Origin: a virus
IMG/VR virus record: IMGVR_UViG_3300021963_004264
Coordinates: 1 to 64,000 of that record
Length of the DNA stretch: 64,000 nt
Direction: 5' to 3' (one strand)
In this document: positions 25,210 to 51,878 of the stretch, in pieces
Numbering within the stretch: position 1 is the stretch's first letter
Layout: each line of letters opens with the position of its first letter
The notes under the pieces: generated by a model
Seen by the model: the letters and a program-made list of their open reading frames with translations, nothing else
Databases searched by the model: none
What the model was told of the DNA's origin: nothing
Made by a program: the position numbers and the translations under genes

Positions 25210-25215
25210 ACCTTA

Positions 25216-25236: not shown

Positions 25237-25259
25237 GGAAAAATAGGTAGTTTTTCCAG

Positions 25260-25287
25260 TTGACAAACCCTCTATTTCGTGTATAAT
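25260..25287 (+). promoter_or_regulatory. Sigma-70-like promoter before the VWA gene
   Basis: TTGACA (25260-25265) and TATAAT (25282-25287), 16-bp spacer, 31 bp upstream of the ATG at 25318. Confidence 0.78.
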
Positions 25288-25317
25288 ATAAGTATAGTAA
25301 GAAGGATGGAGTAACAG

Positions 25318-35619: not shown

Positions 35620-35763
35620 TTACCTGTAAATGAAAGGATCCATTTTGCGAAGTTCTTCTAACTTCTTTTTTAACTGCTCCTCTTCTTCAGCAGTTAGCTC
35701 TAACTCAGGAGCGTCTTTTTCGTTTTGCTCTTTTTTATTTTCTTGATCTAATGGCTTGTTCAT
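35620..35763 (-). CDS. Hypothetical small coiled-coil protein
   Basis: Forty-seven residues from the ATG at 35763; a longer form starting at 35805 would lie inside the previous gene. Highly charged: glutamate-lysine rich (TAEEEEQLKKKLEELRK), probably one helix. It overlaps the SGNH-like gene by 29 bp and ends 3 bp before the carbamoyltransferase gene. Function unknown. Confidence 0.5.
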   Translation of the reverse strand: MNKPLDQENKKEQNEKDAPELELTAEEEEQLKKKLEELRKMDPFIYR

Positions 35764-36376
35764 ATAATTCCTCTGCGATTGAATTGTGTACCTGCTCATT
35801 ACCATGATGTAGTTCGCTGTAATGATCAGGCATCAGTTCTTCGTAATCCTCAAATATAGCATTGAACGGCTTATAATACTTATCGTTGAATAATTCATTA
35901 AATGCTGGATGCTGGACATCTTCATAAAATTTATTCCATGCATTAAAAAACAAATAGTCTATACCCTTGTTTTCAAGGAACGATTTTAATGCAAGTTGAT
36001 TGATCAGCGTTCTTTCTAGTCCTAATGTGTTCCAATTACAACAATAAAGACTCATAAAATCAAATAATTTTTGAAGCTGTTCTTTATTGTTAATGTTATC
36101 AGGTACTTGTCTACCCAGTCCAAAATGATGCCATTCTTCGTTAAAAATAACTTCTTGTCTTTCGTATGTAGTCCAGCCAATAACAACAAAATCAACAGGA
36201 TTATTTAAACAATAGTTAATTGTTGTTCTTAGAATACGGTCGTTGCCGCCGCCGGGCATAGCTAAGTTAACAGATTTCATGCCTAGTTTTTCTGCAAGCG
36301 GTTGAACAAAACTTATAGACGATTCAGATCCTGCAACATGACTACAACCGTTAGCAAGCAATACTTTATTTGTCAT
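35735..36376 (-). CDS. SGNH/GDSL-hydrolase-like protein (copy 2 of 3)
   Basis: A 213-residue protein. LLANGCSHVAGSES is the block I region (serine in GCS), LAMPGGGNDRIL the glycine/asparagine region, DFVVIGWTTYERQE the third strand, and MPDHYSELHHG a DxxH-like element near the C-terminus. Related to the proteins at 21463 and 55665. Probably acts on acyl groups of a glycan, but catalysis is not certain. It overlaps the first radical-SAM gene of the cluster by 11 bp. Confidence 0.6.
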   Translation of the reverse strand: MTNKVLLANGCSHVAGSESSISFVQPLAEKLGMKSVNLAMPGGGNDRILRTTINYCLNNPVDFVVIGWTTYERQEVIFNEEWHHFGLGRQVPDNINNKEQLQKLFDFMSLYCCNWNTLGLERTLINQLALKSFLENKGIDYLFFNAWNKFYEDVQHPAFNELFNDKYYKPFNAIFEDYEELMPDHYSELHHGNEQVHNSIAEELYEQAIRSRK

Positions 36377-37664
36377 ACATTAAATTCCACAGCTCAGGAA
36401 TGGCATTGCTCATACTTTCATTACGCTGTCGATCAAGCAGGCTGGTATACTTCTTAAAAATAGCTAACTGTTTTTCCCAATCATCGTGACGATTTTCTTT
36501 AAGTGCTTTAATAAGAGCATTGATAGCTTGTAGATTATTTTCTCGTTTAACTAAAATTTTACTTGTAGGAATCCATGCTTCTAATCGTTCTACTGCTACT
36601 GCACGGACACTATCAGGTAAATTTCTAAAATCTAAACTGCGAGGATAGTCACAAATTAAAAATGTTAAATGTATTTCTCTGTTATACTCTTGCTCTAATG
36701 TTTCACAATAGTCTAGTAATTTGGTTATGTCTAAGATGTTATATATTTGAATAACAGGACTAAACAGTAGGCTACCTACTACTTTACTAGCACAGTAGCG
36801 ACGAACGTTTTCGTCTGTTTGTGTCCAGTGGCTAGCACCACGAATATATTCGTTTAATTCTCCATATGCATCTACACTAAAGCACATCAACACTTTCTTA
36901 AATTGCTCTACAAGATTAATAAAGCGAGGCTTAATATTAGTCATATTGCTATTAAAAACTAATTCAATATTTTTAGCAATACCTAGTTCAACGCATTTTT
37001 CTAAGATCCAGTATGTACGTTCAATTAGCGTAGGTTCGCCTCCAGTGAAATATAACTTATTAACACCCGGTAGCCATTCTTCGACCTGACGCAAAAATTC
37101 AGGATCATCTTGCCAAGGAGTAATGTGATCAGCAAATTGACCCCAAGTAAAATGATCTTTAATAAACTGTCCCGACATAGGATCAATTTCTTCGATACGT
37201 TTGTATTCTTTTTGTATCTGACTACTGTTTTGTGGTTGACACATACGGCACTTTAGGTTACATAAGTTACCTAAACGGAAGTCCAAATACATTGGTGCTT
37301 CCTCTACTACATAGTCGTTGTCAATACTGCGCTCAATGCGTTGCATAATGCTTTCGCCGTGTCCACTGTATTCAAACCAGTCTCGAATATAGTTAGTGCG
37401 ATAGCTAGGGAAGCCCATCTTTTCTAAATCGTAGCAATGTTCGCAACCCTTAACTGTTTCGCCTTCAATCATTTGTTTGCGTATCTTACGCATGTGATTA
37501 TTGTTCCACACACTTTCAATACGATCACCTTTGTTAAGGTCGAACATAGTACCGTCGTCGTTTTTAAAGTTGTCGCGAGCAACACAGCACCAGCTTACTG
37601 TTCCAGTAGGCTGAGTCATTACATGTATCCATGGATAAGGACAAAATGTTTTACTATATTCCAT
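36366..37664 (-). CDS. Radical SAM protein with N-terminal auxiliary-cluster region, paralogue 1
   Basis: A 432-residue radical-SAM enzyme. Core cluster C135-x3-C139-x2-C142 (CNLKCRMC) and SAM-binding FTGGEPTL near residue 210. Before it is a second set of cysteines: FCPYPW (C8), SWCC (C26, C27) and GCEHC (C74, C77), which by position look like an auxiliary Fe-S site placed N-terminal of the core instead of C-terminal as in SPASM/twitch enzymes. The C-terminus has the paralogue signature ending PELW. Overlaps: 11 bp with the SGNH-like gene, 1 bp with paralogue 2. Substrate unknown. Confidence 0.85.
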   Translation of the reverse strand: MEYSKTFCPYPWIHVMTQPTGTVSWCCVARDNFKNDDGTMFDLNKGDRIESVWNNNHMRKIRKQMIEGETVKGCEHCYDLEKMGFPSYRTNYIRDWFEYSGHGESIMQRIERSIDNDYVVEEAPMYLDFRLGNLCNLKCRMCQPQNSSQIQKEYKRIEEIDPMSGQFIKDHFTWGQFADHITPWQDDPEFLRQVEEWLPGVNKLYFTGGEPTLIERTYWILEKCVELGIAKNIELVFNSNMTNIKPRFINLVEQFKKVLMCFSVDAYGELNEYIRGASHWTQTDENVRRYCASKVVGSLLFSPVIQIYNILDITKLLDYCETLEQEYNREIHLTFLICDYPRSLDFRNLPDSVRAVAVERLEAWIPTSKILVKRENNLQAINALIKALKENRHDDWEKQLAIFKKYTSLLDRQRNESMSNAIPELWNLMYDK

Positions 37665-38860
37665 TAAAATTCCTCTGGTGCATTACCATGCTCTTTTAGG
37701 ATTTTATAAAATTCAGGGAAAGTGTCCTTAAACTTTTCGTCCCTGTATTGATCACTAAACATTGTATGCTTATAGAAAATGTGCATTTTTGATGTATCAT
37801 AATCTACATCAGTGCAATATTTAACTGAGCTAACAATATCTGGATGTGTATTGTTAGCAAATTTTTCAAATACTTTCATCTTAACACGCTTAGGCAATAC
37901 TTTACAACTTAAATGTTCTGGTGTATACACATGATTAAAGTATATAGGTGTATCAGGAAACTCTTTATCTCGCCAAGCAATAATTTCATCTAGATAGAAT
38001 ATGTTGAATATACTAACAGTATAACATATGTCAGGAAATAGTACAGGAATTTTTTGATCTAACAACTTTCTTAAGTTATCTCTAACCTGATCCCACTTAG
38101 TAGGATTTCTTATGTATTCAAAATGAGAACCAATGCCGTCAATACTAAAACTTACCATAACACGTTTAAAGTGTGGCCACAATTCAACACCTCGTTCAGG
38201 ATAAATGCTGCCGTTCGTATTATAGTTTAGTGTAATGTCTTTACTGCGGCCAGTATCAACTAAGTTTTGTAAAATGTCATAGTGGTCGGTAATTAGTAAT
38301 GGCTCGCCACCATAAAATTCTAGTACTTCTAAGTCAGTACTAATCTCTTTAAAATCCTCCCAGAAAGCAGGATTGCGCTCTGGCCAACGGCCTGCTACTC
38401 GCATCTGATCCCAAAAACGATTGCCTTCGCCGTCGCGTTTCTTTTCTTCAGGTACCCACAAGCTACTAGCAAAGCTGTTGCAAATTCTACATCTATTGTT
38501 ACATATATTTCCTAGCTTTAGATCCATAGCAATAGGCTTTTGTAACTCTTTAGCTTCCTGTGCATTTTTTAATGCATCTGGAAAGTCTTTTAGCGCACGT
38601 TGACGCTTACTATGCACGCCAGCGTCTTCAGCAGTCCAACAACTATAACAAGAGGCTGGCTTTTCACCATTTAAGAAATCCTGCCTTAACTTATCAAGCC
38701 ACTCACTGTTCCATCCGTCGCTTAGTGTATTCTCTGCAAGATTTAGTTTCTTACCATCAGGGCCTTTAATCAATTCGTCCATTTGACAGCAAACACTCAT
38801 GTGTCCATCAGTACGTGCTTCAATGTTTACGAAAGGCATTGGACAAAAATGTTTGCTCAT
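37664..38860 (-). CDS. Radical SAM protein, N-twitch type, paralogue 2
   Basis: 398 residues, one of the shortest members. Core cluster C120-x3-C124-x2-C127 (CNNRCRIC) and FYGGEPLL. N-terminal cysteines C6 (FCPMPF), C24/C25 (SVCC), C71 and C74 (CYSC). The tail has MFSDQYRDEKFKDTFPEFY, the D-x-x-R-x-x-x-F-x-x-x-F-P-E-(L/F) motif shared by most copies. The four-base overlap with paralogue 3 (ATGA) indicates coupled translation and probably fixed ratios. Confidence 0.85.
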   Translation of the reverse strand: MSKHFCPMPFVNIEARTDGHMSVCCQMDELIKGPDGKKLNLAENTLSDGWNSEWLDKLRQDFLNGEKPASCYSCWTAEDAGVHSKRQRALKDFPDALKNAQEAKELQKPIAMDLKLGNICNNRCRICNSFASSLWVPEEKKRDGEGNRFWDQMRVAGRWPERNPAFWEDFKEISTDLEVLEFYGGEPLLITDHYDILQNLVDTGRSKDITLNYNTNGSIYPERGVELWPHFKRVMVSFSIDGIGSHFEYIRNPTKWDQVRDNLRKLLDQKIPVLFPDICYTVSIFNIFYLDEIIAWRDKEFPDTPIYFNHVYTPEHLSCKVLPKRVKMKVFEKFANNTHPDIVSSVKYCTDVDYDTSKMHIFYKHTMFSDQYRDEKFKDTFPEFYKILKEHGNAPEEF

Positions 38861-40071
38861 ATGTTCTTTAACTCCGGGAATGTTTCTGCAAAGTTATCGC
38901 CTCTTAGGTCGTCAAATTCTGCATTAAATTTTTTAAATTCTTCTAATAAATGGGTATGGTCATCATCTAAAAATTTCATAGCACTGCGGTAGCCTTCTGT
39001 AGCTCTACCAATGTGATCCTGCGGTTCTAACCAACGCAAATGTTTATTCCATTTATATTTTATTTCTTCTTTTAAACTTTGTGGCAATACACTCATACGA
39101 AAACGTGGATTATTTAACAGTACATTAACATACCAATCACCTGCTTTGATGTAACCTTTTTCTACCCAACTACGATGAAAGTCTGTAATATGCCATGCAT
39201 TGTATGCGCTAACTGTAGAACTAACATAAAAATCTATTTCAGGTGCTCTTGTTCTAAGTTCTTCTATGTTAGCAATAACATCATTCCATATTGTGCCTTT
39301 ACGTTGATACTCTCCTCGAGCACCTTCTGCATCTAAACTAGCACCAACACTAATATGCTTAAAGTTTTTCCACAAGTCAATGACATTATGTTGCTTATAT
39401 TTAAGTTTTGTAAAGTTTGTATTGTAGAATATTCGGATATCTGTCTTGCCTAACTCAACAAGACGATTCATAATGTGCCAGTGTTCGTCCATAATAATAG
39501 GTTCGCCACCAGCCCAATATATTTGTTCGATATGTGGTAGCATAGTTTCGAACTCTTCCATAAAGCCTTCGACGTCTTTACGGATTTGAATTACGCTTTC
39601 TGTGGGTGTTTGGTTAAAACTGCTCTTTACAGCATCTTGAAACCAGTTACTGCTTAGTTCTGGGCCGCAGTAGCGACAGCGTAGGTTACATACGTTACTG
39701 AAGCGGAAGTCTAAGTATACAATATGCAGGTCATCTAAGCTGCCATCAGGATTAGTTTTTGCAACTTTATCCCAATGCGGCTCTAACCAGTCTTTGTTAC
39801 TGCGAACACGTAAGCTGTCGTGACCATACTTTTCCTTTTCGTAACAGCGAACACACTCTTTGCAACTTTTGCCCTGTAGCATGTTAAGGCGAACCTGACG
39901 CATAGCAGGACTGTTCCATACTTCGCGTAAGCTGTTCTCTCGCAAATCGCCTATGTTTGTTTCCCAAGGGCTGTCACAGCACAGCATAGTTTTGCCATTG
40001 GGCCATGGGTGCATGTGAATCCATGGCAATATACACATGGTCTTACTATTCTTATGATCATCTATGTTCAT
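38857..40071 (-). CDS. Radical SAM protein, N-twitch type, paralogue 3
   Basis: 404 residues. Core cluster C128-x3-C132-x2-C135 (CNLRCRYC) and WAGGEPII. The N-terminal region has MCILPWIHMH (C13), LCC (C31, C32) and SCKECVRCYE (C70, C73, C76), one more cysteine than its paralogues. C-terminal signature FDDLRGDNFAETFPELK. It is one base downstream of a TEK-type glycosyltransferase-like gene, so the two may act on the same product. Confidence 0.85.
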   Translation of the reverse strand: MNIDDHKNSKTMCILPWIHMHPWPNGKTMLCCDSPWETNIGDLRENSLREVWNSPAMRQVRLNMLQGKSCKECVRCYEKEKYGHDSLRVRSNKDWLEPHWDKVAKTNPDGSLDDLHIVYLDFRFSNVCNLRCRYCGPELSSNWFQDAVKSSFNQTPTESVIQIRKDVEGFMEEFETMLPHIEQIYWAGGEPIIMDEHWHIMNRLVELGKTDIRIFYNTNFTKLKYKQHNVIDLWKNFKHISVGASLDAEGARGEYQRKGTIWNDVIANIEELRTRAPEIDFYVSSTVSAYNAWHITDFHRSWVEKGYIKAGDWYVNVLLNNPRFRMSVLPQSLKEEIKYKWNKHLRWLEPQDHIGRATEGYRSAMKFLDDDHTHLLEEFKKFNAEFDDLRGDNFAETFPELKNI

Positions 40072-40072
40072 T

Positions 40073-41275
40073 TTAAAAATTACTATCTACCCAAGCTTCT
40101 ATATCATTTGATTGTGCTAGTGTTTTTACTCTATAAAAATTATTTGCTAATCTCACAGACATATTTCTTTGTTTTAATATCTCACACCAACCGTTTATTG
40201 TATACATATTTACTAAACGTTTTAATTCATCAAACACTAAATCACATCGTTTATAAATGTTATCTTCTTTATCATAATTATGATTCACTATATCGTCAAA
40301 CATATCAAAACCTAGCTCTCGTAGCACTTGTACCATTCCTGGTGCAGCGATGAATAAAGGAATTTGATTCATTAAAAATGCTTTAGCAGTTTTTTCTGTA
40401 AAAAATACTCTATCAGACGAAACTGTTTGCCAATTATATGGCACAGGACTATAATATTTAACATGACTTCTAACATCACTACCAACAGACGACTCTTGAA
40501 CAACATTAAAAATTGCTGATTCAAATTCTTTGAAAAAATGATGTTGATCATTGTCTGCGTGATTAACAGATACAGGAAATTTAGCAAGCTCGTCGTCACT
40601 AAGCATTAATTTTAAATAATTTATGCTGTTCGGATCTTTCCAAACATTTAATGTGTCATTGCCCCAACCACAAGTTACTATACCCTTATTTAATAAGTCG
40701 GCCTCATTTAAAATTTTGTTAGTAAAATAGATACGTTCTTGTCTAACTAATCTACCTAAGCTAACAAAATGTTTATTTTTACAACCTATGTCGCCAGCAG
40801 TTGGAATTTTATCTACCACTAAAGGTCTAAAAAGAGATTTAAAAAATGTTGGTGCAGTAAAGTGTGTTATTTTTAATTTTTCTAGGTGTCTAAGGACAGG
40901 GCCTTTAGTGAGGGCGCCATCAATCCATAAAATATTTTTATAACCATCGCTCTGCAACATATCAAACACAATGTTCCAATATGTTGAGTTTAATGCTTCG
41001 GTTGTATAACCAACAATAATATTTTCTTTCTTAGGAAGGCAAGAAAGCGCATATTTTGTATAAAGACTAATATCAAATTCGGAGATACTTTGATAATCTA
41101 TGATGTTAAATGAATTACTTTTATTTGTTAGGCTATCATATAGTGCATCGTACTGGTCGTTAAGGTGTACAATATCTGCATGACAGATAGTTTTTGTCTT
41201 AGTAATTTCTAGATTTTTATTAGGATCTAGATAACTAGGATGATAAAACTTTTCAATATGTGTGGTTGTATCCAT
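40073..41275 (-). CDS. TEK-motif glycosyltransferase-like protein (copy 2 of 3)
   Basis: A 400-residue protein related to 16743-17789 and 43824-44963. The C-terminal half has FFTEKTAKAFLMNQIPLF, then VLRELGFDMFDDIVNHNYD and a helical tail. The motif and the following FxxF-(D/N)xxYD recall GT10-type donor domains, so it probably transfers a sugar. The N-terminal half is A+T-rich and unassigned. It overlaps paralogue 4 by 23 bp. Confidence 0.6.
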   Translation of the reverse strand: MDTTTHIEKFYHPSYLDPNKNLEITKTKTICHADIVHLNDQYDALYDSLTNKSNSFNIIDYQSISEFDISLYTKYALSCLPKKENIIVGYTTEALNSTYWNIVFDMLQSDGYKNILWIDGALTKGPVLRHLEKLKITHFTAPTFFKSLFRPLVVDKIPTAGDIGCKNKHFVSLGRLVRQERIYFTNKILNEADLLNKGIVTCGWGNDTLNVWKDPNSINYLKLMLSDDELAKFPVSVNHADNDQHHFFKEFESAIFNVVQESSVGSDVRSHVKYYSPVPYNWQTVSSDRVFFTEKTAKAFLMNQIPLFIAAPGMVQVLRELGFDMFDDIVNHNYDKEDNIYKRCDLVFDELKRLVNMYTINGWCEILKQRNMSVRLANNFYRVKTLAQSNDIEAWVDSNF

Positions 41276-42497
41276 ACTTCTCTATCATTTCTATTAGTTC
41301 AGGGAACACAGCACGCCAAGTTAAACTAGCTGGGTGTTGACGTTGCTTATCTAGTTGATCATTGTAGCGACAAAACTGTTCCCATTTATTTGAATCCCAG
41401 TCATCGTTTTCAAATAAACCTGTAATATTTGAAAAATGTACGCCATTACCGTACTTACCAACTCTATATTTGTGAATAATTTCTTTTCTTACCTCCGGAG
41501 GTAGAACCGCAGGACTTAAAAAGTCAGGATCATATACAAAATTCATATCTACTGGTACAGGAGCCCAATCTAAAAATTCTTCCAAGTAAGCAAAATTATA
41601 AGCACTAACAGTTTGTGTGATGCGTATAGTTAAATCTGTTTCCATAAGTCTATTAAGATTATCTCTAACATCAGCCCAGTATGTTGGAAAACGTATATAA
41701 TGATTACGTACATGCAAATCGTCGATGCTCGGGCATACACGAGTCTCTTTGAATTCTTTCCATAAAGGAATAGCCTGTTCGGGTAAGTTAGTCATATTAA
41801 TGTTATACCACAATGTAATATTTTTACTACGGCCACCGTCTACTAACTTACGTAGATACTTCCAATGTGCTTTAATAAGTGTTGGTTCGCCTCCATTGAT
41901 ATACAATACTTCCATGTTAGGCGCACTATTGTACAAATCTTCATAGAAGCTTTCATCCTCAGGCCATTTAAAATCGTTTTTATGATCTAGCCAACTATAT
42001 CCGTCGTTTACAAACTCTAATTTTTCCACCAATTCTTGATAATCTCGGCGCCACTGACTGCTACTTGCTGGATTGCAAGTACGACAGCGAACATTGCATA
42101 CATTACCAAGACGGAGCTCGACAAAACGAAGGTCAAGAGGAATGCCACCGTTAGTGTCAGTAATGCTGCTAGCCCAAGTAAGGTCTCGATGAGGATACTG
42201 GCCCATTTCATGTTTTCTTTTGCTAACAATTTTTTTATCTTCTTCATCATAACACCTCATACATGCAACAGGTTTTTCACCATTTAACATTTGTTGCCTT
42301 ATTTGCTTAAAGTAATCACTGTTCATGTGGGTGTTAATATCGTGATTATTTAATGTAAAGAATTGATCTCCATCTGGGCCAAAATTTCTAGCACGATTTT
42401 TACCTGCTGTGTGATCGCTGATACAGCAAGGTGTAACACCACCATGCGGGTGTGTACCTAAATGAATCCACGGTAGTGGACAGAATGTATTACTCAT
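41253..42497 (-). CDS. Radical SAM protein, N-twitch type, paralogue 4
   Basis: 414 residues. Core cluster C134-x3-C138-x2-C141 (CNVRCRTC) and INGGEPTL. N-terminal cysteines C6 (FCPLPWIHLG), C24/C25 (PCC), C79 and C82 (CMRC). C-terminal signature DKQR then AVFPELIEM. Translationally coupled to paralogue 5 (4-bp overlap) and to the TEK-type gene downstream. Activity and substrate unknown. Confidence 0.85.
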   Translation of the reverse strand: MSNTFCPLPWIHLGTHPHGGVTPCCISDHTAGKNRARNFGPDGDQFFTLNNHDINTHMNSDYFKQIRQQMLNGEKPVACMRCYDEEDKKIVSKRKHEMGQYPHRDLTWASSITDTNGGIPLDLRFVELRLGNVCNVRCRTCNPASSSQWRRDYQELVEKLEFVNDGYSWLDHKNDFKWPEDESFYEDLYNSAPNMEVLYINGGEPTLIKAHWKYLRKLVDGGRSKNITLWYNINMTNLPEQAIPLWKEFKETRVCPSIDDLHVRNHYIRFPTYWADVRDNLNRLMETDLTIRITQTVSAYNFAYLEEFLDWAPVPVDMNFVYDPDFLSPAVLPPEVRKEIIHKYRVGKYGNGVHFSNITGLFENDDWDSNKWEQFCRYNDQLDKQRQHPASLTWRAVFPELIEMIEKYGYNHTY

Positions 42498-43831
42498 ATA
42501 AATGCGCCTTTCGCTACAGCGCCGTAACGTGGATCTTCTACAGCTTTAGCGTAGTGAAAATCATAATCAAAATATGGTTTGATTATTTCATACAGTTCAG
42601 GAAATACTTTTCTAAAATCTTCGCCTCTATATCTATCACCTGCAACCAGTTGTTGCATAAACATTCTACGTCTAACAGCCATTTCTGTTTCAACAGTAAT
42701 ATTAGGATCAGGAACATCGCTCCAATCACGCATGGGTATTACTACTTGCTCCAGTGGTGTTAGTACATGATTAATAATACCTTTGATTTGCCCTTCAACG
42801 GAAGCATTAGGAAAAGTCATGTTTTGTAAAGGCGCAACTACTTTGGTTTTTACAAATTCCTCAAACACATTACTATTAAACCAGCTGGGGAAATGAACCA
42901 TATTAAAGAAAATTTCAAAATTAGGCCAACGTTCAGCAAATACTTCTACATATTCTTTTAAGTACATCACATTCATTGCTGATACCGTACATGTAATACT
43001 TACATAAATTTCTTTGTTAGTATGTAATGTATGGAAATGGTCTAAATTTTTACTTACTACATCCCAATCAGCACCATGTCTTAAATATTCAAATCTTTCT
43101 TTACTGGCAGCATCAACACTAATACCGAAACCAACATCCTTAAAGTTCTTAATAAGTTTACCTACCAAGTCAGTGTGTAATTGTGTTCCGTTAGTGCTAA
43201 AGTTAAGAGCAATATCTTTTGCAAGATCACGTTCAATAAGTTTTTCAGCAAATGATTTAAACTCTTTCATATACAGCGGCTCGCCGCCCATAATTTCTAG
43301 ATACTTAATATCCTTGATCCAGTCATCCATCTCAGTCCAAAACTTTGCATTTTCCATGTCGTCCATTTGAATAGCAACTGTTTCTTTTAGATAGGGCAGA
43401 CCTCTATCTTCAGACTCTTTAACCCACTTACTGCTATAGTTAGGATTACACGTTCTGCATTTAATATTACAAGTTGTTCCTAAAATAAGTTGGAAGTCTT
43501 GCGGCATTTCTGGTTCTTGAGAATAGTCTATTTCTTCGTAGCGCCATTTAGCATACTCGTTATAAATTTCACGTTTAGACTGTTTACCATTAGCTTCGTC
43601 TTGCCAACAATGCTTACAGTTTTTTGGTAAACCACCTTCTCTAATTTCTTGGCGGACATTTTTATAAAATTCACTGTGGAAGATGTCACGAACACTAGTT
43701 TCACCAAGTGTATAAAATTCTCCATTAGGCTTTGTTACACGTTGTTGTGCAATACAACATGTTCTAACAAATCCACCTGGTTCGTTACTCATGTGCTTCC
43801 AAAGCAAACTGCAATATCTAGGTTCAGACAT
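42494..43831 (-). CDS. Radical SAM protein, N-twitch type, paralogue 5
   Basis: 445 residues. Core cluster C121-x3-C125-x2-C128 (CNIKCRTC) and IMGGEPLY. N-terminal cysteines C7, C25/C26 (TCC), C72 and C75 (CKHC). The signature RYRGEDFRKVFPELYEII is followed by a longer tail than in the other copies. It overlaps a TEK-type gene by 8 bp upstream, so the arrangement GT-like gene then radical-SAM gene occurs twice (43824/42494 and 40073/38857). Confidence 0.85.
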   Translation of the reverse strand: MSEPRYCSLLWKHMSNEPGGFVRTCCIAQQRVTKPNGEFYTLGETSVRDIFHSEFYKNVRQEIREGGLPKNCKHCWQDEANGKQSKREIYNEYAKWRYEEIDYSQEPEMPQDFQLILGTTCNIKCRTCNPNYSSKWVKESEDRGLPYLKETVAIQMDDMENAKFWTEMDDWIKDIKYLEIMGGEPLYMKEFKSFAEKLIERDLAKDIALNFSTNGTQLHTDLVGKLIKNFKDVGFGISVDAASKERFEYLRHGADWDVVSKNLDHFHTLHTNKEIYVSITCTVSAMNVMYLKEYVEVFAERWPNFEIFFNMVHFPSWFNSNVFEEFVKTKVVAPLQNMTFPNASVEGQIKGIINHVLTPLEQVVIPMRDWSDVPDPNITVETEMAVRRRMFMQQLVAGDRYRGEDFRKVFPELYEIIKPYFDYDFHYAKAVEDPRYGAVAKGAFI

Positions 43832-44963
43832 TTACTACTTCCTCTTTTTCGTTATAAATCTTATATGCTAGGTTATAGTTATGATCTAAAACTTCTTGAA
43901 CTTCTTCACTATAAACTTTTTCTTTTAAACTGTTAAAAGGCATATCTAAGTATGTTGTTACTTGATTTAAAATATGATCTATTCTTTCAAAACTGTCGTC
44001 TATATCATCATAGCTTTCATCAAATAAAATACCATCAAATGTTTTGAAGCCCCATGACCGTAAAACTTTTAATCCGTTTGGCATGCCAAACCTAATAAAA
44101 GGTCTTTTATATATTATTGATCTAAAAAGTTTTTCGGATAACACATCTTCTTTCCACCAATCATTCTTATTTTTAAATTCTTTATAATCTTCAAAACTAT
44201 AAAAATCCTCTGCTTCATGATAGTCAATATTAAAATTAAATAAACACGAAGAAAAAGAATTTTTAAATTCGTCAGTTTCGCCAAGCCATATATTTGAAGT
44301 CCTAACAATGTTCTCAACATTTTTTGTTAACGAATTAAAGTAATTTTTTTGTTCGTTAGTTAAATTCCAATCGTCGGGTACATCAAAATTTTCGTAAAAA
44401 AACGATGTTATCATCTTTTCTATTCTTGGTGTATTAACAATATTTTTTAAATACCATTGTAACACAAAATTTCTATGTAGTGTAGGTCTACCTACAAACA
44501 TACTTACATGCTTAGTTTCTTCTTTTTCTAAATAGCTACAACCATTTAAAAATAATCGCTCTAACCAAAGACTCTTAGGTTGATTGTATACTTTTATTTT
44601 TTTATCTATTAGATTTTTGTTACACCATTTATTGTAGCTGTCAGTACTATAAATGTTTGATGTTAAAAAAACAATATTTTCTTCGGGAATTTGAAAATGT
44701 TTAGATAGGTCATGTAATATATCAAACCATAATTTACTTTTATCGCGAGAACCAAACAACATAGGCTCTTCTACACAATCTATTATGAGTTGTTTATCTT
44801 TATTTTCTAATGCGGCTTTTTCAAAAACTTGTTTAATTTTAAAAAGTTTATTGTCGTTAGATGATAAAGGGAACCCGCCATGAATAGTTATATAGTAAGA
44901 AGTTAGAGGAGAATGAACTCCCCTAACTTCCATTTTACCTGTTATTGTTTTTTGCAATAACAT
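43824..44963 (-). CDS. TEK-motif glycosyltransferase-like protein (copy 3 of 3)
   Basis: A 379-residue protein, the most A+T-rich of its family. LSEKLFRSIIYKRPFIRFG, then LKVLRSWGFKTFDG, and DESYDDIDDSFERIDHIL is the clearest version of the shared C-terminal module (SEK in place of TEK). The ATG at 44963 overlaps the stop of the UDP-glucose dehydrogenase gene by one base; ATG at residue 11 is an alternative. Likely sugar donor use follows from the neighbour making UDP-glucuronate, which is inference. Confidence 0.6.
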   Translation of the reverse strand: MLLQKTITGKMEVRGVHSPLTSYYITIHGGFPLSSNDNKLFKIKQVFEKAALENKDKQLIIDCVEEPMLFGSRDKSKLWFDILHDLSKHFQIPEENIVFLTSNIYSTDSYNKWCNKNLIDKKIKVYNQPKSLWLERLFLNGCSYLEKEETKHVSMFVGRPTLHRNFVLQWYLKNIVNTPRIEKMITSFFYENFDVPDDWNLTNEQKNYFNSLTKNVENIVRTSNIWLGETDEFKNSFSSCLFNFNIDYHEAEDFYSFEDYKEFKNKNDWWKEDVLSEKLFRSIIYKRPFIRFGMPNGLKVLRSWGFKTFDGILFDESYDDIDDSFERIDHILNQVTTYLDMPFNSLKEKVYSEEVQEVLDHNYNLAYKIYNEKEEVVNV

Positions 44964-46246
44964 TACCTAGTATTGCCGTAATGAACTACTTCTACACCAG
45001 TTAAATCAGGTGTTTTACGCCACGGATCAACTACAACACTTCCTTCGGCAAAGCTAAGGGTAGTACCATTAGCTGTTGCTACTGTTAATGCTTCATCTGC
45101 ACCTGTAACTCTGTGATCATTATACCAACCTTTTACAAAGTCTAGCTGTTCACCGTAAGTAATCTGCGGATTGTGTGCTAGCAAGTAAACAGCTGGGCTA
45201 GATAGAACATCAGCTGGCGGTACTTCTCCCATTACTTCGTCTAAGTAATAAAGTTTAGCACCAAGTTGTTCTACATAATGCCCAACCAACATACTGCTAC
45301 TACCGGCATCATATGGCACTAATGGCTTATATGCTTTACCTACAATAACTACAGGCTTGCCGGATGCAAGTTCAACTAACTTTTTAGCCATGTTTTCTGC
45401 TTGTACTTCACGTGAACGCATTACAGCATCAAATAAGTCATAGCCTAAGTCTAGGCGCTCTGCTAGAAAGCGTAGAGCAATATTATCGCGTGGGTGACAT
45501 GCACCGCCATCGCCCATGCCAGGCTTCATGTAACCTGGTCCCATAATGCGTCTGTCGCTTGTTGCTAGTGCATCGCAAACTACTTCAGCATTAACATGAC
45601 CTAGCTTTTCAGCTACGTCCTGAATCATGTTTACTAGGCTTACTTTAGCACTAATGAATGTATTATAGAATACTTTGATACATTCTGTTTCTTCCCAAGT
45701 ACCTACAATGTAACGTGGGCTGTTCTGCATAATGGTCTTGTAGAAGTCTACAAGTTCTTTTGCATCACCAGTTTCGCTGCCATCCTCTGTACCAATCATA
45801 ACCATTTCTGGGTTAACCATGTCCCACTTAACAGTACCCATAGCAATTAAGTATGGATTATAAATGAAACGTGCATTAGTTATTAATGGTTGTAACTGAC
45901 TACGAACTGTACCTGGTAGTACAGTTGAGATTAGAACAATTAACTGAGACGGTGTTGCAACCGCATTTACTTCACGCAGAACGTTCTTGACTACAGTGTA
46001 ATCAAAGTCTTTGTTAGGTAAATGACTGGTTGGTGCTTTGCCATCATATTTTGGATCGTGCGGTGTTTCAACTGCGATAAACACAATATCTTGACCGCGT
46101 ACTGCATCAGCGAGTGTAGGAACCATTTTAAAGTTCTCTGGCTCGCGTGGTGAAATATCATATCCAACAACATCATGGACTTCAGCGACCATCTCGGCGC
46201 AGGCTTGTCCTAGCTTGCCAACTCCGATAAATCCGATTGAGGCCAT
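44963..46246 (-). CDS. ugd: UDP-glucose/GDP-mannose dehydrogenase family protein
   Basis: A 427-residue NAD-dependent nucleotide-sugar dehydrogenase, oxidising the sugar C6 twice to a uronate. IGFIGVGKLGQA is the Rossmann turn, ISTVLPGT and FIYNPYLIAMG are conserved in the family, and GMGDGGACHPRDN (C250) holds the catalytic cysteine; most enzymes have GGSCFPKD, so the loop is a variant. VIVGKAYKP starts the C-terminal UDP-binding domain. UDP-glucose is the likely substrate given the GalE-like gene at 10727. It is the first gene after the late-like promoter at 46291, with AGGAG before the ATG. Confidence 0.85.
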   Translation of the reverse strand: MASIGFIGVGKLGQACAEMVAEVHDVVGYDISPREPENFKMVPTLADAVRGQDIVFIAVETPHDPKYDGKAPTSHLPNKDFDYTVVKNVLREVNAVATPSQLIVLISTVLPGTVRSQLQPLITNARFIYNPYLIAMGTVKWDMVNPEMVMIGTEDGSETGDAKELVDFYKTIMQNSPRYIVGTWEETECIKVFYNTFISAKVSLVNMIQDVAEKLGHVNAEVVCDALATSDRRIMGPGYMKPGMGDGGACHPRDNIALRFLAERLDLGYDLFDAVMRSREVQAENMAKKLVELASGKPVVIVGKAYKPLVPYDAGSSSMLVGHYVEQLGAKLYYLDEVMGEVPPADVLSSPAVYLLAHNPQITYGEQLDFVKGWYNDHRVTGADEALTVATANGTTLSFAEGSVVVDPWRKTPDLTGVEVVHYGNTR

Positions 46247-46267
46247 TTTCTTCTCCTAAGTTGTTAA

Positions 46268-46285
46268 GTACAGTTTTAACTGTAC
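46268..46285 (-). repeat. 5'-leader hairpin of the ugd-type transcript
   Basis: GTACAGTT (46268-46275) and AACTGTAC (46278-46285) form a perfect inverted repeat just after the expected start site of the late-like promoter 46291-46298. It would be at the 5' end of the mRNA and could stabilise it. Confidence 0.5.
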
Positions 46286-46290
46286 CTACA

Positions 46291-46298
46291 TATTTATC
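46291..46298 (-). promoter_or_regulatory. Late-like promoter (GATAAATA) driving 46246 to 29980
   Basis: Minus-strand GATAAATA lies in the only gap of more than 20 bp between 54079 and 29980. The next genes are nearly overlapping down to 29980, so this site probably drives 15 genes, including five radical-SAM paralogues. Confidence 0.6.
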
Positions 46299-46317
46299 AG
46301 GTAATTTTACTTGATTA

Positions 46318-47712
46318 TCAAGTATTTGGCTTTCTCATCCACCAATCGTATAGTTCGTTGTCGGCTTTGTATATGTCTTCGATGCGTAAAGGCTGTTCTG
46401 GACGAATATCAGCAATCTTATCCTGCCAGTTGCGTCCTTTGAAGAAACTGGCTTCAGCTTGATCTGGCCACTGTTCTTGGAACGTAGGTGTTACTAACAT
46501 ATTCTCTAGTTCACGTATTAGTGTTTGTTGTTTATGTGTAGCACGTGGTACAATATAATCTAAATTTTCTTTAATGATACGATCTAAAATGTGTCTCGGC
46601 CAAGCCATAGGACTAAACACAATGTCGGAATGAAATGCAAACATACGTTTAGTTTCAATTTTAACATCTAATTCTAATGCATAATTAAAGAAAGTTTTTA
46701 AATCAAACATACCTGGGCCAGTTAATGTAAGATCCATGAGCATACGATCTTTACCTCCTGGTAGTGCTACACCTTCACGGAAGTTACGATCCCATTCATT
46801 CCACTTTAACCCAGTACGGATAAATTCACCAATAGTACCAGTACCATCAATACTAGCGCACATAGTCCAGTCCTTGGCTTGTGGTAACCAATCATACAAA
46901 TAGTGATTATTAAATCTTACTCTGCTTAAGTTACTGTTATAACGTAAATGTACTTTTTTAAGATTGTCGTCTTGCGATAAACGATCCATTGCACGCCAGT
47001 GAATATCATACATCAATGGTTCACCGCCGACCCAATAAATTTCCTCTACAATACCTCGACAGATGGCATCCCAAAATTCTTCTTCTACAACTTCTTTTTG
47101 GAATTTCTCAATGATCTTTTTATTTTCGGGGACCATGAAAGGTTGGTTTTCTGGACTCCAGAGACCGTGCTTTTTCTTTTCTGCTTCCCAGCTTGAAGAA
47201 AGAGGTTCACCACACATACGACACTTAAAATTGCATAAATTACTGACCCTATAGTCAAAGCTAATAGGCTCCATACGAGTAGTTCCATCATCATCTGTCT
47301 CCTCGAACGCTTGTTCGATCTTGTCCTTAAATAAAAATCCTGTAAACCACTGGCGATAAGTGCTTTGACTTAAAATGCTATCATTACATACTGCACATTG
47401 TGGTATTGTTTCCCCGGACATTAGCTTCTTGCGAATGTCCTTCATATAATCACTATTCCAGTGTTCGTGTAAACTTACTGGTTTATAATCGTCAATAGTG
47501 CCTACTTCTTTATACTTGCCGGTGCTCTTGTCGTTGCTAGCGTCAATGTATTGACGCTGCATCATATGTTCTTCGCGACTAGCACAGCACATGCGTCGCT
47601 CGCTTTGAGGACTAATGTACGTATGCGTCCATGGCGCCATACAAAATGTTTTGTTAGGAGATTCTGGACTCATTTGCCCATGTTCCCAAATTGGTTTAAT
47701 TCTTTTTGTCAT
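46318..47712 (-). CDS. Radical SAM protein, N-twitch type, paralogue 6
   Basis: 464 residues. Core cluster C160-x3-C164-x2-C167 (CNFKCRMC) and WVGGEPLM. N-terminal cysteines C24 (FCMAPW), C42/C43 (MCC), C106 and C109 (CAVC), in a longer N-terminal region than other members. SMR-like gene 47709-47930 is coupled by a 4-bp overlap upstream. The C-terminus lacks the clear FPEL signature. It is the last gene of the transcript from 54107 before the gap at 46247-46317. Confidence 0.85.
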   Translation of the reverse strand: MTKRIKPIWEHGQMSPESPNKTFCMAPWTHTYISPQSERRMCCASREEHMMQRQYIDASNDKSTGKYKEVGTIDDYKPVSLHEHWNSDYMKDIRKKLMSGETIPQCAVCNDSILSQSTYRQWFTGFLFKDKIEQAFEETDDDGTTRMEPISFDYRVSNLCNFKCRMCGEPLSSSWEAEKKKHGLWSPENQPFMVPENKKIIEKFQKEVVEEEFWDAICRGIVEEIYWVGGEPLMYDIHWRAMDRLSQDDNLKKVHLRYNSNLSRVRFNNHYLYDWLPQAKDWTMCASIDGTGTIGEFIRTGLKWNEWDRNFREGVALPGGKDRMLMDLTLTGPGMFDLKTFFNYALELDVKIETKRMFAFHSDIVFSPMAWPRHILDRIIKENLDYIVPRATHKQQTLIRELENMLVTPTFQEQWPDQAEASFFKGRNWQDKIADIRPEQPLRIEDIYKADNELYDWWMRKPNT

Positions 47713-47930
47713 AGTTTTTGTATATCTATTACGCCGTAGTGATCCATTGTGGCTACTGTTATGTTATGTCGCTTAATTACTGCAAATACTAAATCAATCA
47801 TTACCTGACTGTTGCCGCAAATTATTTTTAAAGGCACTAATTTTTGATTCATGAAAATAAAGTTTTCCACTATGCGATCAACGTCATGATGTCTTACTCC
47901 GTGTAAATCTAATGTATTATTTTTACCCAT
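47709..47930 (-). CDS. Smr-like domain protein
   Basis: A 73-residue protein from the ATG at 47930. LDLHGVRHHDVDRIVENFI is the Smr signature (LDLHG), followed by PLKIICGNSQVM, which corresponds to the glycine-rich TGxGxH loop. Smr domains in MutS2 and elsewhere are nicking nucleases or nucleic-acid binders. The family's stand-alone short forms occur in phages. It overlaps the NeuB-like gene by 8 bp. Confidence 0.6.
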   Translation of the reverse strand: MGKNNTLDLHGVRHHDVDRIVENFIFMNQKLVPLKIICGNSQVMIDLVFAVIKRHNITVATMDHYGVIDIQKL

Positions 47931-48663
47931 TTGCAATCTCTAGTATTTCTAAATTTTTAAAGTAATCATAAAATTGTTGAGGTGTTAACAAGGCTGCATT
48001 ATCACTATCTTCATCGCCCAGATACTTTTCAATAAATTCTACACCTTTATATGCAACTGCAACACTAGGGAATATGCCTACATCTTTACTTTCGTACCCT
48101 ACAGTATAACCTTGCTGTATTAATTTATCTAGTTCGTTTAAATGAATTTCATTGATCTCAGGCGGAAAATTTTCTGTAGTGTAATATACTTGCAGATTCT
48201 TTCTACCTTTACCATATAGTGTTTGGTAGTCTTCATTGTGTTTGTAACTAAAGATAACTTCTGTAAAATTATTTTTGCAAAATCTAGATAGTTCGTAAAT
48301 GTTGACAGCACTGTTATGAAGCTTAATAACTTTAGCATCACAATACTCTTTTACAAATTCTGCCGCATTACTGTCAGTAACACTCCATATAACGGGTATA
48401 CCTATTCTATTTGCTAAATTGCTAATATGTTCAGCTGAATTTATATCTATCTCACTACGTTTAGCAACTTCAATATATGGTAAATGCCCCCAGCGACTTG
48501 GTATAGAAACATATTTCTTTTCTTCCGGTATAAGCAAACTAGGTGTGCTTTTGCTAATTACAACTGCATCAGCATTACACTGTGCAGCCGCAATTAGTCT
48601 TGCTTCTAAGACACTAATTTTATTTTCGTGTCCTACACCTATGTTAGCATATAGTTTAGCCAT
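47923..48663 (-). CDS. NeuB-like sugar-acid synthase TIM-barrel domain
   Basis: A 246-residue protein like the N-terminal barrel of NeuB (N-acetylneuraminate or legionaminate synthase), which joins phosphoenolpyruvate to a hexosamine. LYANIGVGHENKISVLEARL and AAQCNADAVVISKS match the first strand-helix unit (AxxGxNHxG...A...GADAVKFQ). RWGHLPYIEVAKRSEID and IPVIWSVTDSNAAEF follow as in NeuB, and VGYESKDVG fits the GYSDH-like strand. It lacks the C-terminal antifreeze-like SAF domain (usual length about 345). The FQ/E metal-ligand residues are partly changed, so activity is uncertain. Confidence 0.65.
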   Translation of the reverse strand: MAKLYANIGVGHENKISVLEARLIAAAQCNADAVVISKSTPSLLIPEEKKYVSIPSRWGHLPYIEVAKRSEIDINSAEHISNLANRIGIPVIWSVTDSNAAEFVKEYCDAKVIKLHNSAVNIYELSRFCKNNFTEVIFSYKHNEDYQTLYGKGRKNLQVYYTTENFPPEINEIHLNELDKLIQQGYTVGYESKDVGIFPSVAVAYKGVEFIEKYLGDEDSDNAALLTPQQFYDYFKNLEILEIANG

Positions 48664-50332
48664 TGCCTTCTACACCACCTAAACCATCTAATTCTGTATC
48701 CCAGCCAATGCTACTGCCACCAATTTTTTTCATCATTTCAGCACGAGCTTCAGGGTCTAATGGATTGTCGTACCAGTCTGCACTTTCACCTGTCTTACGA
48801 TCACGCTTACGAACTTCCTCTACAACAACTTCACCATCTTCGCTTACTGTACGATGTGCATAAACAGCACCGTCTTTAGCTAATGTCTTTGGTTGCTGGA
48901 TATCCATTTCTTTTTTCACTAGTGGCAGAACTTTGATGTTATCATAGAACTCTACTAGATTAGGAAATGTTTTGCGGAAGTCTTTGCCGCGACGTGCATC
49001 ATACTGCTCATGGAATACTTTAAAGTCATGCTCTAGTAGTTCACGGTCAGCAGTATTACGATGCGGTGTTTTAACAACGTCTAGATACTCAATAAGACGA
49101 CTTAGCTGATCCTGCTCCCAAGGTTGCACCAACTGTAGTCCATTAGCATCACGCTCGTCCTTTTCACGTACTTCTTTAAGCCAGTTAAAGATTTGGTCGT
49201 GATACTTTTTACGTAACTCATCTGGTAGTGTTAATGGACTTTGGAAACTAGGGAAGCGTAGAATGTTGCAAGTAAAGCCTGGACGATTATGTCCGTACTT
49301 GCGCTTCATTGACAGCATCCAGTTTAAAAAGTCTACAATACTATCTAAGCACAGCGCATTAATGGTCATCATCATGTGCAAGCCTTCGATACGTGCTTCA
49401 CTACACATACGTTCAAAGTTATGTGTCCATTCTTCCCAGTTTAGTCCGTCGCGAATATATTCAGCTTGTGGGCCGTATGCTTCGCAACTAGTATACAAGT
49501 GGAAACGATTAATATACTGTGTACCGGCAATTAACTTGTCAATAAGGTCTTTCTTAGAACCTAAGTTACTGTTAATAGCTAAACGCATTTTTTGTGCTTG
49601 CGGTGTATCAGCGTTTTCTTTAAACCAATCAAACAGTTTATAGATGTCAGGAGTCATTGTAGGTTCACCACCAGTAACACGAATTTCTTCTAGCTCTTGG
49701 CTAAGTTCAGGCCACCAACGCCAGAACGCATCTACATATGGATTAAAGTCATCTCTGTCAAATGGTTCTGCATAAGGTGCATCGTCAATAAAATGCCCAC
49801 GTGCATCGCTACGGATATTATGGTAACCGCCATTATTTCGAATGTCTTTTACCCATGTAGTACTGAAAGCAGGATTACAATAGCTACATGCGAACTGACA
49901 AGTTCTATTAAAGGAAATTTCTAAAGTCTTAAGACCAACGTCTGCATCTGGATTTAGTTTAGCAATCTTCATCAAGTCTTCATCTTCATAGATAACAGTC
50001 TTGTATGTACGATCACTTACAGGCTCGTTGCCGTCAGCATCCTTGCCCATATCCTCAATCTTCCAGCAGTATTCACATTCTTTGGGACGCTTGCCTTCCT
50101 GCATCATTTGACGCATTTTCTTTTTGTGCTTGGTATTGTGAATAGCAGTAGGATTAGTTTTGATTTCTTCTAAATCAATTTGGTGTGCGGGAGGGTGATG
50201 GCAACTAGTAGTGCCACCATGCCCTAGCCAAATAGTAGCATTAAGCCACTTAGCCGCACAGAATGATTCCGAAACCGGATCAATCATTCTCTTCTTAAAC
50301 TCTCTGTGGCTTTCGCCTTGCTTACGTCCCAT
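48656..50332 (-). CDS. Radical SAM protein, N-twitch type, paralogue 7
   Basis: 558 residues, the longest copy. Core cluster C145-x3-C149-x2-C152 (CQFACSYC) and VTGGEPTM. The N-terminal set is C25, a single C44 followed by HHPP instead of the CC pair, then C86 and C89 (CEYC), and it has HQIDLEEIKTNPTAIHNT, almost the same as in paralogue 8. DARRGKDFRKTFPNL is the C-terminal signature, then a 100-residue charged tail not seen in the others. Paralogues 7 and 8 are thus a distinct subgroup. Confidence 0.85.
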   Translation of the reverse strand: MGRKQGESHREFKKRMIDPVSESFCAAKWLNATIWLGHGGTTSCHHPPAHQIDLEEIKTNPTAIHNTKHKKKMRQMMQEGKRPKECEYCWKIEDMGKDADGNEPVSDRTYKTVIYEDEDLMKIAKLNPDADVGLKTLEISFNRTCQFACSYCNPAFSTTWVKDIRNNGGYHNIRSDARGHFIDDAPYAEPFDRDDFNPYVDAFWRWWPELSQELEEIRVTGGEPTMTPDIYKLFDWFKENADTPQAQKMRLAINSNLGSKKDLIDKLIAGTQYINRFHLYTSCEAYGPQAEYIRDGLNWEEWTHNFERMCSEARIEGLHMMMTINALCLDSIVDFLNWMLSMKRKYGHNRPGFTCNILRFPSFQSPLTLPDELRKKYHDQIFNWLKEVREKDERDANGLQLVQPWEQDQLSRLIEYLDVVKTPHRNTADRELLEHDFKVFHEQYDARRGKDFRKTFPNLVEFYDNIKVLPLVKKEMDIQQPKTLAKDGAVYAHRTVSEDGEVVVEEVRKRDRKTGESADWYDNPLDPEARAEMMKKIGGSSIGWDTELDGLGGVEGNG

Positions 50333-50342
50333 TGTGTGTCCT

Positions 50343-51878
50343 CTAAATCATTGCATTTGCTTCTTGGCAAATTTGCCACCAGTCTTCCATTTCCGGGAAC
50401 ACTGATAAAAAGTCTGTGTCTCTACGCTGATCATGTTGCGTAAAGAATTTATAAAAATTAGCTCGCGCTTTTAATACTTCTTCTTCACTTAACTTACTGC
50501 CCGCTTTCATCCATTCTAGATTACGACGAGCCTTATCAATTTCAAAATCCTTAAAGCCTCTATAGTCTATGTACTGCTCGTTGGCAGCATTAAGTTCCAT
50601 AAAAGCAATTGCTTCTTCTAAGTAGTCCTGGTACCATTCTGGCATTACTTGTATGCACTGCCAGTGTGGTGCTCGCAATAACGGAATATCAAACCAAATA
50701 CGTTGCTTAGGACGTATTTCGTAGTCAGGGTGTTTGTGTCCACCATTATCCGGTACTGGTATGTATTTAATGCCTTGGCGATCTTTAGCGAACTCTTCGC
50801 GGAGCTCTAGAATAAACTGTAGCCATTCTCGGAAGCTGGTTAAGCTAAGTGCATTAAATGTGTTAATAAATGTTATAGTGGTATTGTCTGTTTCACGTAG
50901 TACACGCAATACATTCTTCTTTAGCACTTCAAAGTCCATGCCGTTACGCATGTACTCTGCTTGCTTACCATAACCGTCACAGCTAACAAACACAGCGAAG
51001 TTCTTACAAGCCGGTGCTACATACCAGTTGTTTCCACTGTTTGGATTAAACTTCTGTGGATCTTCCCAAATTTGAATCTGTTCTAAACGCTGTAGCGATT
51101 CAATAAACTTGTCCATTAGCTGTGGCTTTGGTGGAACCATGTTTGATGTTACACTCATTTCTAGCCATGCGTTAGGATTTTTATACACATAGTCTAGTAC
51201 TTTAAAAGTATTTACGTCCATCAGTGGTTCACCACCTGTCATACGGAACACTTCTAGATTCTTGTATAACTCTGGCCACCATTTCCAGAACGCTTCTACA
51301 TATGGATTCTCATCCTGTGCTACACGCAAAGGCATTAGGCCTGCGCGAGCTAAACTTTCTGTGTTGTTATGCTCGCCACCCACAATTTGATATGGACCGT
51401 GATCTTTAATCTCTTGATGCCAGCTGGTGCTTAGATGCGGACTGCAATAACTGCATTTGAAGTTGCAGGCTTGGTTAAAGTTTACTTCTACATAGCGTGG
51501 GTTGATGTTGCCTTCCCAACCTGCTGTCTTAATATCTTCTTTAGCGTTCTGTGCCCAGTATTCGCCACTGCGGTAAACACGATCACTGCGGCCACCTACA
51601 TCTTCGATGCGCCAGCAGTAGCTACAACCAGCTGGGCGTTTTCCTTCCAGCATGTCTTTACGCTGTTCTTTTTTCTCAGATGTATTGTGTAGCGCACTGG
51701 GATTAGCCTTTAGTTCTTCTAGGTCAATTTTGTGCGTAGGCGGATGATAACAACTGTGTGTCATGCCGTTAGTCAAGTGCATAGATACCTGCGCCCACTT
51801 TGCATAACACATAGTAGGGCTAATAGCATCTAGTTCTTTTTGGGCGGCATCTGCTGCCTGTTCATAAATACTAGTCAT
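50343..51878 (-). CDS. Radical SAM protein, N-twitch type, paralogue 8
   Basis: 511 residues. Core cluster C138-x3-C142-x2-C145 (CNFKCSYC) and MTGGEPLM. N-terminal cysteines C24, C43 (SCYHPP) and C85/C88 (CSYC), with HKIDLEELKANPSALHNT as in paralogue 7. The end has HDQRRDTDFLSVFPEMEDWW. It is followed by a 10-bp gap before paralogue 7 and overlaps the SDR gene by 8 bp. A recent duplication with paralogue 7 is likely. Confidence 0.85.
   Translation of the reverse strand: MTSIYEQAADAAQKELDAISPTMCYAKWAQVSMHLTNGMTHSCYHPPTHKIDLEELKANPSALHNTSEKKEQRKDMLEGKRPAGCSYCWRIEDVGGRSDRVYRSGEYWAQNAKEDIKTAGWEGNINPRYVEVNFNQACNFKCSYCSPHLSTSWHQEIKDHGPYQIVGGEHNNTESLARAGLMPLRVAQDENPYVEAFWKWWPELYKNLEVFRMTGGEPLMDVNTFKVLDYVYKNPNAWLEMSVTSNMVPPKPQLMDKFIESLQRLEQIQIWEDPQKFNPNSGNNWYVAPACKNFAVFVSCDGYGKQAEYMRNGMDFEVLKKNVLRVLRETDNTTITFINTFNALSLTSFREWLQFILELREEFAKDRQGIKYIPVPDNGGHKHPDYEIRPKQRIWFDIPLLRAPHWQCIQVMPEWYQDYLEEAIAFMELNAANEQYIDYRGFKDFEIDKARRNLEWMKAGSKLSEEEVLKARANFYKFFTQHDQRRDTDFLSVFPEMEDWWQICQEANAMI

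Follow-up and report, generated by a model that had tools for sequence, protein, structure and literature searches.

An ordered array of eight N-twitch radical S-adenosylmethionine enzymes in a marine virus of bacteria and its relatives among uncultured viruses

According to the available portions of earlier reports, genes encoding radical S-adenosylmethionine (SAM) enzymes are enriched in viromes (PMC7150976) and are carried by Campylobacter phages (PMC3322345). The closest described systems come from T4-like marine viruses. Pelagimyophage host-recognition clusters were reported as hypervariable regions with GT8 glycosyltransferase genes beside tail fibres, to which radical SAM cassettes were added in one genome pair, and the accessible part of that study states neither the family nor the orthology of these cassettes, nor a fixed order or partner genes (PMC7029224). 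The genome TARA_ERS488813_N000010 contains 12 radical SAM genes together with an A-type Fe-S carrier; in the accessible text, these genes were read as Fe-S metabolism and their paralogy, arrangement and glycan context were not analysed (PMC5332604). Both systems resemble the one presented here, an array of eight radical SAM genes located in a stretch of 64,000 nt (hereafter, the window) from the 73,954-base IMG/VR virus record IMGVR_UViG_3300021963_004264. This record derives from a marine virus of bacteria with a DNA polymerase similar to those of T4-type jumbo phages. As far as the accessible texts go, the phenomenon has been glimpsed earlier and not described as a conserved ordered system. 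In the openly accessible literature, subscription papers being outside the search, we found no description of an ordered orthologous core with its partners, nor was the N_Twi family named.

The eight open reading frames (ORFs), designated R1 to R8 by rising coordinate, occupy the minus strand between positions 36366 and 51878. All of them match the NCBIfam family NF033640 (N_Twi_rSAM, twitch domain-containing radical SAM protein) over essentially their full length, with scores of 298-402 bits against a curated cut-off of 170 bits, and all carry a CxxxCxxC and a GGEP motif. These are R1 (36366..37664, 432 aa, CNLKCRMC, 363.8 bits), R2 (37664..38860, 398 aa, CNNRCRIC, 358.2 bits), R3 (38857..40071, 404 aa, CNLRCRYC, 402.2 bits), R4 (41253..42497, 414 aa, CNVRCRTC, 355.3 bits), R5 (42494..43831, 445 aa, CNIKCRTC, 298.1 bits), R6 (46318..47712, 464 aa, CNFKCRMC, 301.2 bits), R7 (48656..50332, 558 aa, CQFACSYC, 313.1 bits) and R8 (50343..51878, 511 aa, CNFKCSYC, 323.3 bits). 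Both the ORFs and their motifs lie where a first-pass annotation, made from the DNA letters alone, had placed them, and its assignment of all eight to one N-twitch family is borne out: none falls into an unrelated family, and every family other than NF033640 scores far under its own cut-off. R1 to R8 are thus members of a known family in a new arrangement, since the NF033640 entry describes single proteins, in contrast to the ordered multi-orthologue array with fixed partners found here. With 19-29% identity between R3, the most central member, and the other paralogues, these genes are ancient rather than recent copies. Since the genes of the array overlap or sit close together, transcription as one or two units, running from the high towards the low coordinates, is probable. 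Our best reading, which we hold tentatively and at somewhat less than an even chance, is a multi-enzyme glycan-editing pathway acting on virion or host-surface sugars.

Canonical SPASM/twitch domains sit C-terminal of the radical SAM core. A SPASM domain (PF13186) was detected ahead of the core (PF04055), at approximately residues 6-110, in six of the eight proteins, two of these matches being below the cut-off. R7 and R8 have no PF13186 match, yet they keep the four N-terminal cysteines, whose spacing is conserved among the homologues scanned. In R3, the putative ligands are C13, C31/C32, C73 and C76. The extra cysteines previously noticed before the core are therefore present, but they correspond to the SPASM/twitch auxiliary-cluster motif in an N-terminal position. 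The seven-cysteine motif that defines SPASM enzymes with two auxiliary clusters (PMC6231123) was not found in the paralogues, across which the four N-terminal cysteines alone are conserved. Nearly all full-length homologues carry the CxxxCxxC and GGE motifs. The proposed division into two subgroups is well marked, a C[HY]HP motif following the second ligand cysteine in 67 of 71 members of the R7 clade (C-HHPP in R7 itself) and 69 of 72 of the R8 clade (C-YHPP in R8), and in none of the remaining clades, most of which have CC. The C-terminal signature attributed to most of the proteins holds in part: D..R is invariant in all eight, but a literal FPEL occurs only in R3, R4 and R5, the other paralogues having IPEL, FPEF, DNEL, FPNL or FPEM at this position.

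The AlphaFold2 model of R3 (predicted local distance difference test score, pLDDT, 93.7; predicted template modelling score 0.90) matched the radical SAM cores of CteB, BlsE, SkfB, anSME, viperin and MoaA in the PDB at a template modelling score of ~0.4. Such core-only matches are expected if no solved structure has the N-terminal-twitch order, and full-length fold matches were obtained with predicted viral proteins. The best solved relative of an R3-orthologue profile was BtrN (E 6e-5), a 2-deoxy-scyllo-inosamine dehydrogenase acting on an aminocyclitol, with a four-cysteine auxiliary cluster (PMC9012708). The twitch auxiliary domain, C-terminal in this enzyme of antibiotic synthesis, aligns cysteine for cysteine with the domain found N-terminally in R3 and its orthologues, so that the domain order is swapped with respect to BtrN. 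For R3, this alignment lends support to a common site for the four cysteines.

SPASM enzymes act in the maturation of sulfatases and of ribosomally synthesised and post-translationally modified peptides (RiPPs). The presence of this domain, together with the nearest core folds being those of CteB, SkfB and anSME, suits a different role, in which R1 to R8 would be peptide or protein maturases installing cross-links, epimers or oxidations in adjoining virion proteins such as the tail fibre or neck. We regard this as unlikely, as a Pfam scan of the eight proteins gave only Radical_SAM and SPASM above cut-offs, with no PqqD/RRE-type domain, and no candidate for a short, conserved Cys-rich precursor stood out in the array, where no systematic search for one was made. 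Viperin recurs as a low-scoring match to all eight proteins as well as in the fold search, and GTP cyclohydrolase and QueE-like genes are also found in the window, which would be in line with a viperin- or QueE-like action, directed at nucleic acid (hypermodified DNA bases) or at nucleotides (chain-terminating ones). This appears very improbable: R1 to R8 reach at most 32.5 bits with the prokaryotic viperin family NF038283, whose cut-off is 180 bits, the queuosine-type genes are found on the opposite strand at a distance of over 20 kb, and the partners of the array are glycan-type and virion genes.

Relatives of R3 are encoded at 20 IMG/VR loci, in 16 of which the identity is 75-93%. In every close relative with a contig spanning the region, all eight paralogues occur in the same order, accompanied by the genes for a UDP-glucose/GDP-mannose dehydrogenase (UGD, 44963..46246), a NeuB-like protein (47923..48663), an O-carbamoyltransferase (34093..35616), rep1099 (30638..33937) and rep331 (53084..54079), and, where covered, by GTc (54802..55665) and GTd (57111..58019); like the array, all these genes lie on the minus strand, as do those of GTa, GTb, the SGNH/DUF6071-type protein, h119 and str521 described below. 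The interspersed genes are variable, including those of two putative transferases, GTa (40073..41275, 400 aa, with a conserved TEK motif) and GTb (43824..44963, 379 aa, not kept in all relatives), and of an SGNH/DUF6071-type protein (35735..36376, Pfam DUF6071 6e-9) that occupies a variable slot. Between the window and its nearest relative, the ratio of nonsynonymous to synonymous substitution rates (dN/dS) was 0.014-0.049 for all eight R genes, 0.31 for GTa and 0.26 for the fast-evolving GTb, values of which only the ranking is safe because dS is near saturation. Strong purifying selection acts on all eight paralogues.

Among 17 close loci, window included, R2 exists in two types. Type A (65-100% identity to the window R2) was found in seven loci, all with GTa between R3 and R4, and type B (40-46% identity) in ten, all without GTa. 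Conversely, a gene designated u7 lies between UGD and R6 in 8/8 type B loci covering this spot and in 0/5 type A loci. Its product is sulfotransferase-like by its 3'-phosphoadenosine-5'-phosphosulfate (PAPS)-type motifs (SxGKTGTTS and RDPWxRYVSG), with no Pfam or PDB match. The R2/GTa state requires three changes by parsimony on an R1+R3+R4 tree and one on the R2 tree, and in one relative (G002) identity to the window is 90-96% for R1, R3, R6, R7, R8 and UGD but 46% for R2, and GTa is gone. This joint switch of R2 type and neighbour points to a shared step for R2 and either GTa or u7. A coupling of R2 with GTa in distant viruses, for which a residual-distance test looked significant, was rejected: slot status there is mostly phylogenetic (four parsimony changes on both the R2 tree and a concatenated R8/R7/R3/R6 tree), so that only the switch in close relatives stands.

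A broad alignment (A1) offered no conserved stretch for collection scans and an R3-centred set was used instead, yielding at least 562 confirmed stretches; the distant loci described here are among the matches listed. Thirty-two further virus records (47-347 kb) have 3-21 family matches each. A tree of 587 sequences separates ancient orthologue groups for R2, R3, R6, R7 and R8, each with ~58-71 members from distant viruses, the R6 group being strongly conserved (mean column identity of 69% across viruses). Hardly any R4 or R5 members come from outside the lineage of the window, and both groups fall with the R2 branch (R4 on an R2/R5 branch); R1 forms a small clade with few homologues outside the close lineage and few distant members. 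R2, R3, R6, R7 and R8 are thus ancient orthologues. Across 42 distant loci with enough flank, all five were present in 36, and 30 had the exact order R8-R7-R3-R2-R6. Partners included rep331 (39 loci), GT8-like families (37 each), a family designated c4 (35), the carbamoyltransferase (34) and the GTa family, c1 (31). As the loci were found via R3, its presence is by construction, but that of the other genes is not. From one end to the other, the typical order is tail fibre, str344, h119, GTd, GTc, a small gene, rep331, R8, R7, R3, R2, R6, c4 and carbamoyltransferase. A pattern of single genes devoid of glycan neighbours is thus not what the relatives show; they hold arrays with glycosyltransferases, 36 of the 42 loci having one of each core orthologue. 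Family c1 is the most frequent interspersed gene, with 46 of 135 interior genes.

The c4 family comprises conserved 360-aa proteins of uncharacterised function (e.g. L169:15871-16947, plus the A4 members), with no match in Pfam, the PDB or catalogued phages. In reverse searches from c4, four or more N_Twi genes lay within 10 kb in 50 of 50 full-flank loci, and one or more in 79 of 80 loci; from rep331, N_Twi genes were found in 25 of 32 full-flank loci. The array of the window is without c4, which was not found in its lineage, a 250-kb record included. These figures bear on the idea that the paralogues are independent auxiliary metabolic genes, brought together by a hypervariable island and sharing no pathway. 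The region does correspond to the hypervariable host-recognition cluster of pelagimyophages, as described in the accessible part of that study (PMC7029224), and the number of members per record is variable, but the fixed five-orthologue order, the constant company of c4 and N_Twi arrays and the low dN/dS of all eight genes make this improbable. Two further observations concern array-bearing viruses. A second radical SAM family (c15-like, ~330 aa, WQVNxxCNF) repeatedly accompanies the arrays (L168:14552-15541, L069:11269-12267, L095:13455-14465 and the array end of G017), and an A-type Fe-S carrier (PF01521), sometimes in two copies, occurs in eight of nine array-bearing records of at least 190 kb, including G033, G043, G049 and G050, a count made without a control set.

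The neighbouring genes in the window were only partly as first annotated. UGD (PF00984, 1e-17; PF03721, 9e-15), whose nearest solved structure is UDP-glucose 6-dehydrogenase, a class II aldolase, the short NeuB-like protein (246 aa, Pfam NeuB 3.5e-14) and the carbamoyltransferase (507 aa, conserved partner c5, Carbam_trans_C 3e-55; nearest solved structures NovN, GdmN and TobZ) are confirmed by Pfam. GTc and GTd are GT8-like by PDB profile, their joint profile matching glycogenin (E 6e-5). Library support was lacking for the other proposed glycan genes, namely a putative SDR (51871-52530) in the libraries scanned, GTb, and GTa, which has no meaningful Pfam, NCBIfam, PHROG or PDB match and is only putatively a glycosyltransferase. 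Sequence searches of the PDB were likewise uninformative for rep331, the GTa family and c4. The rep331 protein (family c0), a strongly conserved partner, has a GT-A-like fold in its model (pLDDT 82), with weak matches that are nearly all GT-A-type glycosyltransferases and sugar nucleotidyltransferases; rep1099 is a large protein with repeated rep331-like domains and no library match. The N-terminal motif of the NeuB-like protein looks degenerate, and the relatives G004 and G010 add a second, fuller NeuB with an adjoining cytidylyltransferase (Pfam-confirmed in G010). The cassette is bordered by h119 (58003..58362), a head-tail connector-like virion protein (PHROG 22998 connector, E 0.0017), and str521 (59871..61436), a tail-fibre/virion protein with PHROG tail fibre and virion structural matches. 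From this location, we infer that the array sits in the host-recognition region of the genome. Constant adjacency to the virion genes str344, str521 and h119 could also be expected of maturases acting on virion proteins; the conserved partners, however, are glycan genes.

A glycan-editing pathway is favoured because these partners (GT8-like, rep331, carbamoyltransferase) and the virion-gene location fit it best. It is further supported by BtrN, an aminocyclitol dehydrogenase, being the best solved relative of the R3 profile, by the switching of R2 type with GTa or the sulfotransferase-like u7, and by some bacterial homologues being found in polysaccharide loci. In such a pathway, each enzyme would hold two [4Fe-4S] clusters, one that cleaves SAM and an auxiliary one with the four N-terminal cysteines as ligands. 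In a glycan bound to a nucleotide, a carrier or a protein, the 5'-deoxyadenosyl radical would abstract an unactivated hydrogen at a sugar carbon, and the auxiliary cluster would accept or return an electron, leaving an oxidised or epimerised sugar position. The paralogues may have a single glycan as their substrate, each modifying a position of its own; UGD, the NeuB-like protein and the GT8-like and GT-A-like transferases would make this glycan, with O-carbamoylation or sulfation as a possible finishing step. The product may decorate the tail fibre or neck, or may alter the host envelope at a late stage of infection. The earlier suggestion that each paralogue may handle a different step agrees with the ancient orthologue groups and one-of-each arrays.

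Several points weigh against glycan editing. Activity on a sugar is putative, being deduced from sequence comparison and gene context. The similarity to BtrN is weak and limited to the auxiliary domain of R3, the R6 and R7/R8 profiles having no BtrN auxiliary match and retrieving MoaA and viperin instead, and the cores preferred in the fold search are those of CteB, BlsE, SkfB, anSME and viperin. Furthermore, recognisable sugar enzymes were not enriched among 64 interior genes from distant arrays surveyed with Pfam; besides c1, interior genes are mostly unannotated, their commonest match being further radical SAM genes. Many single bacterial N_Twi genes (Bacteroidota) lie outside glycan loci, and it has been cautioned that, in SPASM/twitch enzymes, function is not predicted by sequence clustering (PMC6231123). 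A more general proposal is put forward as a possibility about which we are doubtful: an ancient, ordered enzyme line, made up of five or more permuted-twitch radical SAM proteins (eight here), would be common to large uncultured viruses and would edit one virion or host-surface glycan in sequence, with c4 as a partner in most lineages.

Outside viruses, homologues were found in Bdellovibrionota, Elusimicrobiota and Bacteroidota metagenome-assembled genomes (MAGs) and in some isolates. The polysaccharide loci concerned are those of Ca. Jettenia, with an ABC-2/Wzt-domain exporter and two GT2 genes, and of Tropicimonas, with a flippase. Some of the contigs classed as bacterial, L095 among them, look viral, and in the Elusimicrobia MAG CAIRTQ01, N_Twi genes are spread over a dozen or more contigs (L056, L058, L060-L062, L064-L066, L068, L071, L076-L078), including ORFs of 966-1078 aa. 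Among 50,697 catalogued phage records, R8, R7, rep331 and c4 had no match, R3 and R2 matched two Vibrio phages only, and R5 weakly matched 39 Vibrio phages. The description of the array as very unusual thus applies to catalogued phages, but not to uncultured viruses, in which arrays of this kind are frequent. Vibrio phages K566/K567 and KVP40-type phages also carry N_Twi-type radical SAM genes (six matches in K566, two above the cut-off), but without c4 or any R8 or R7 match, and with no conserved glycan partners noted in their annotation. In K566 (L010), a possible laboratory model, the six matches are near a gene annotated PagP.

Elsewhere in the window, GTP cyclohydrolase I (PF01227, 4e-38), a QueE-like radical SAM gene, assigned from sequence reading with a Pfam Radical_SAM match below the cut-off, and a gene for a 521-aa protein, which we take to be an archaeosine/queuine transglycosylase look-alike, were identified, together occupying 3916-5481, 12262-13071 and 13598-14488; 7-deazaguanine DNA modification is a possible role for this set. 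A Bax1-I (BAX inhibitor-1 like) membrane protein (8797-9474, Pfam E 3e-48) is unexpected in a phage. At 24020-26601, an AAA ATPase is followed by a DUF2201/VWA-like protein, forming a MoxR-VWA-like pair whose ATPase (u28) recurs in relatives.

Radical SAM enzymes are oxygen-sensitive and depend on Fe-S clusters, so that five to eight of them with their partners represent a large investment for a virus, and their strict conservation indicates that the product is important to it. Which glycan or polymer is edited, and whether host recognition depends on the array, are the questions raised by these data. If correct, the glycan-editing reading would reveal a virus-encoded carbohydrate pathway without a described cellular counterpart. 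The arrays themselves represent a large, almost uncharacterised set of enzymes in abundant aquatic viruses, nearly all of which has been missed by catalogues of cultured phages.

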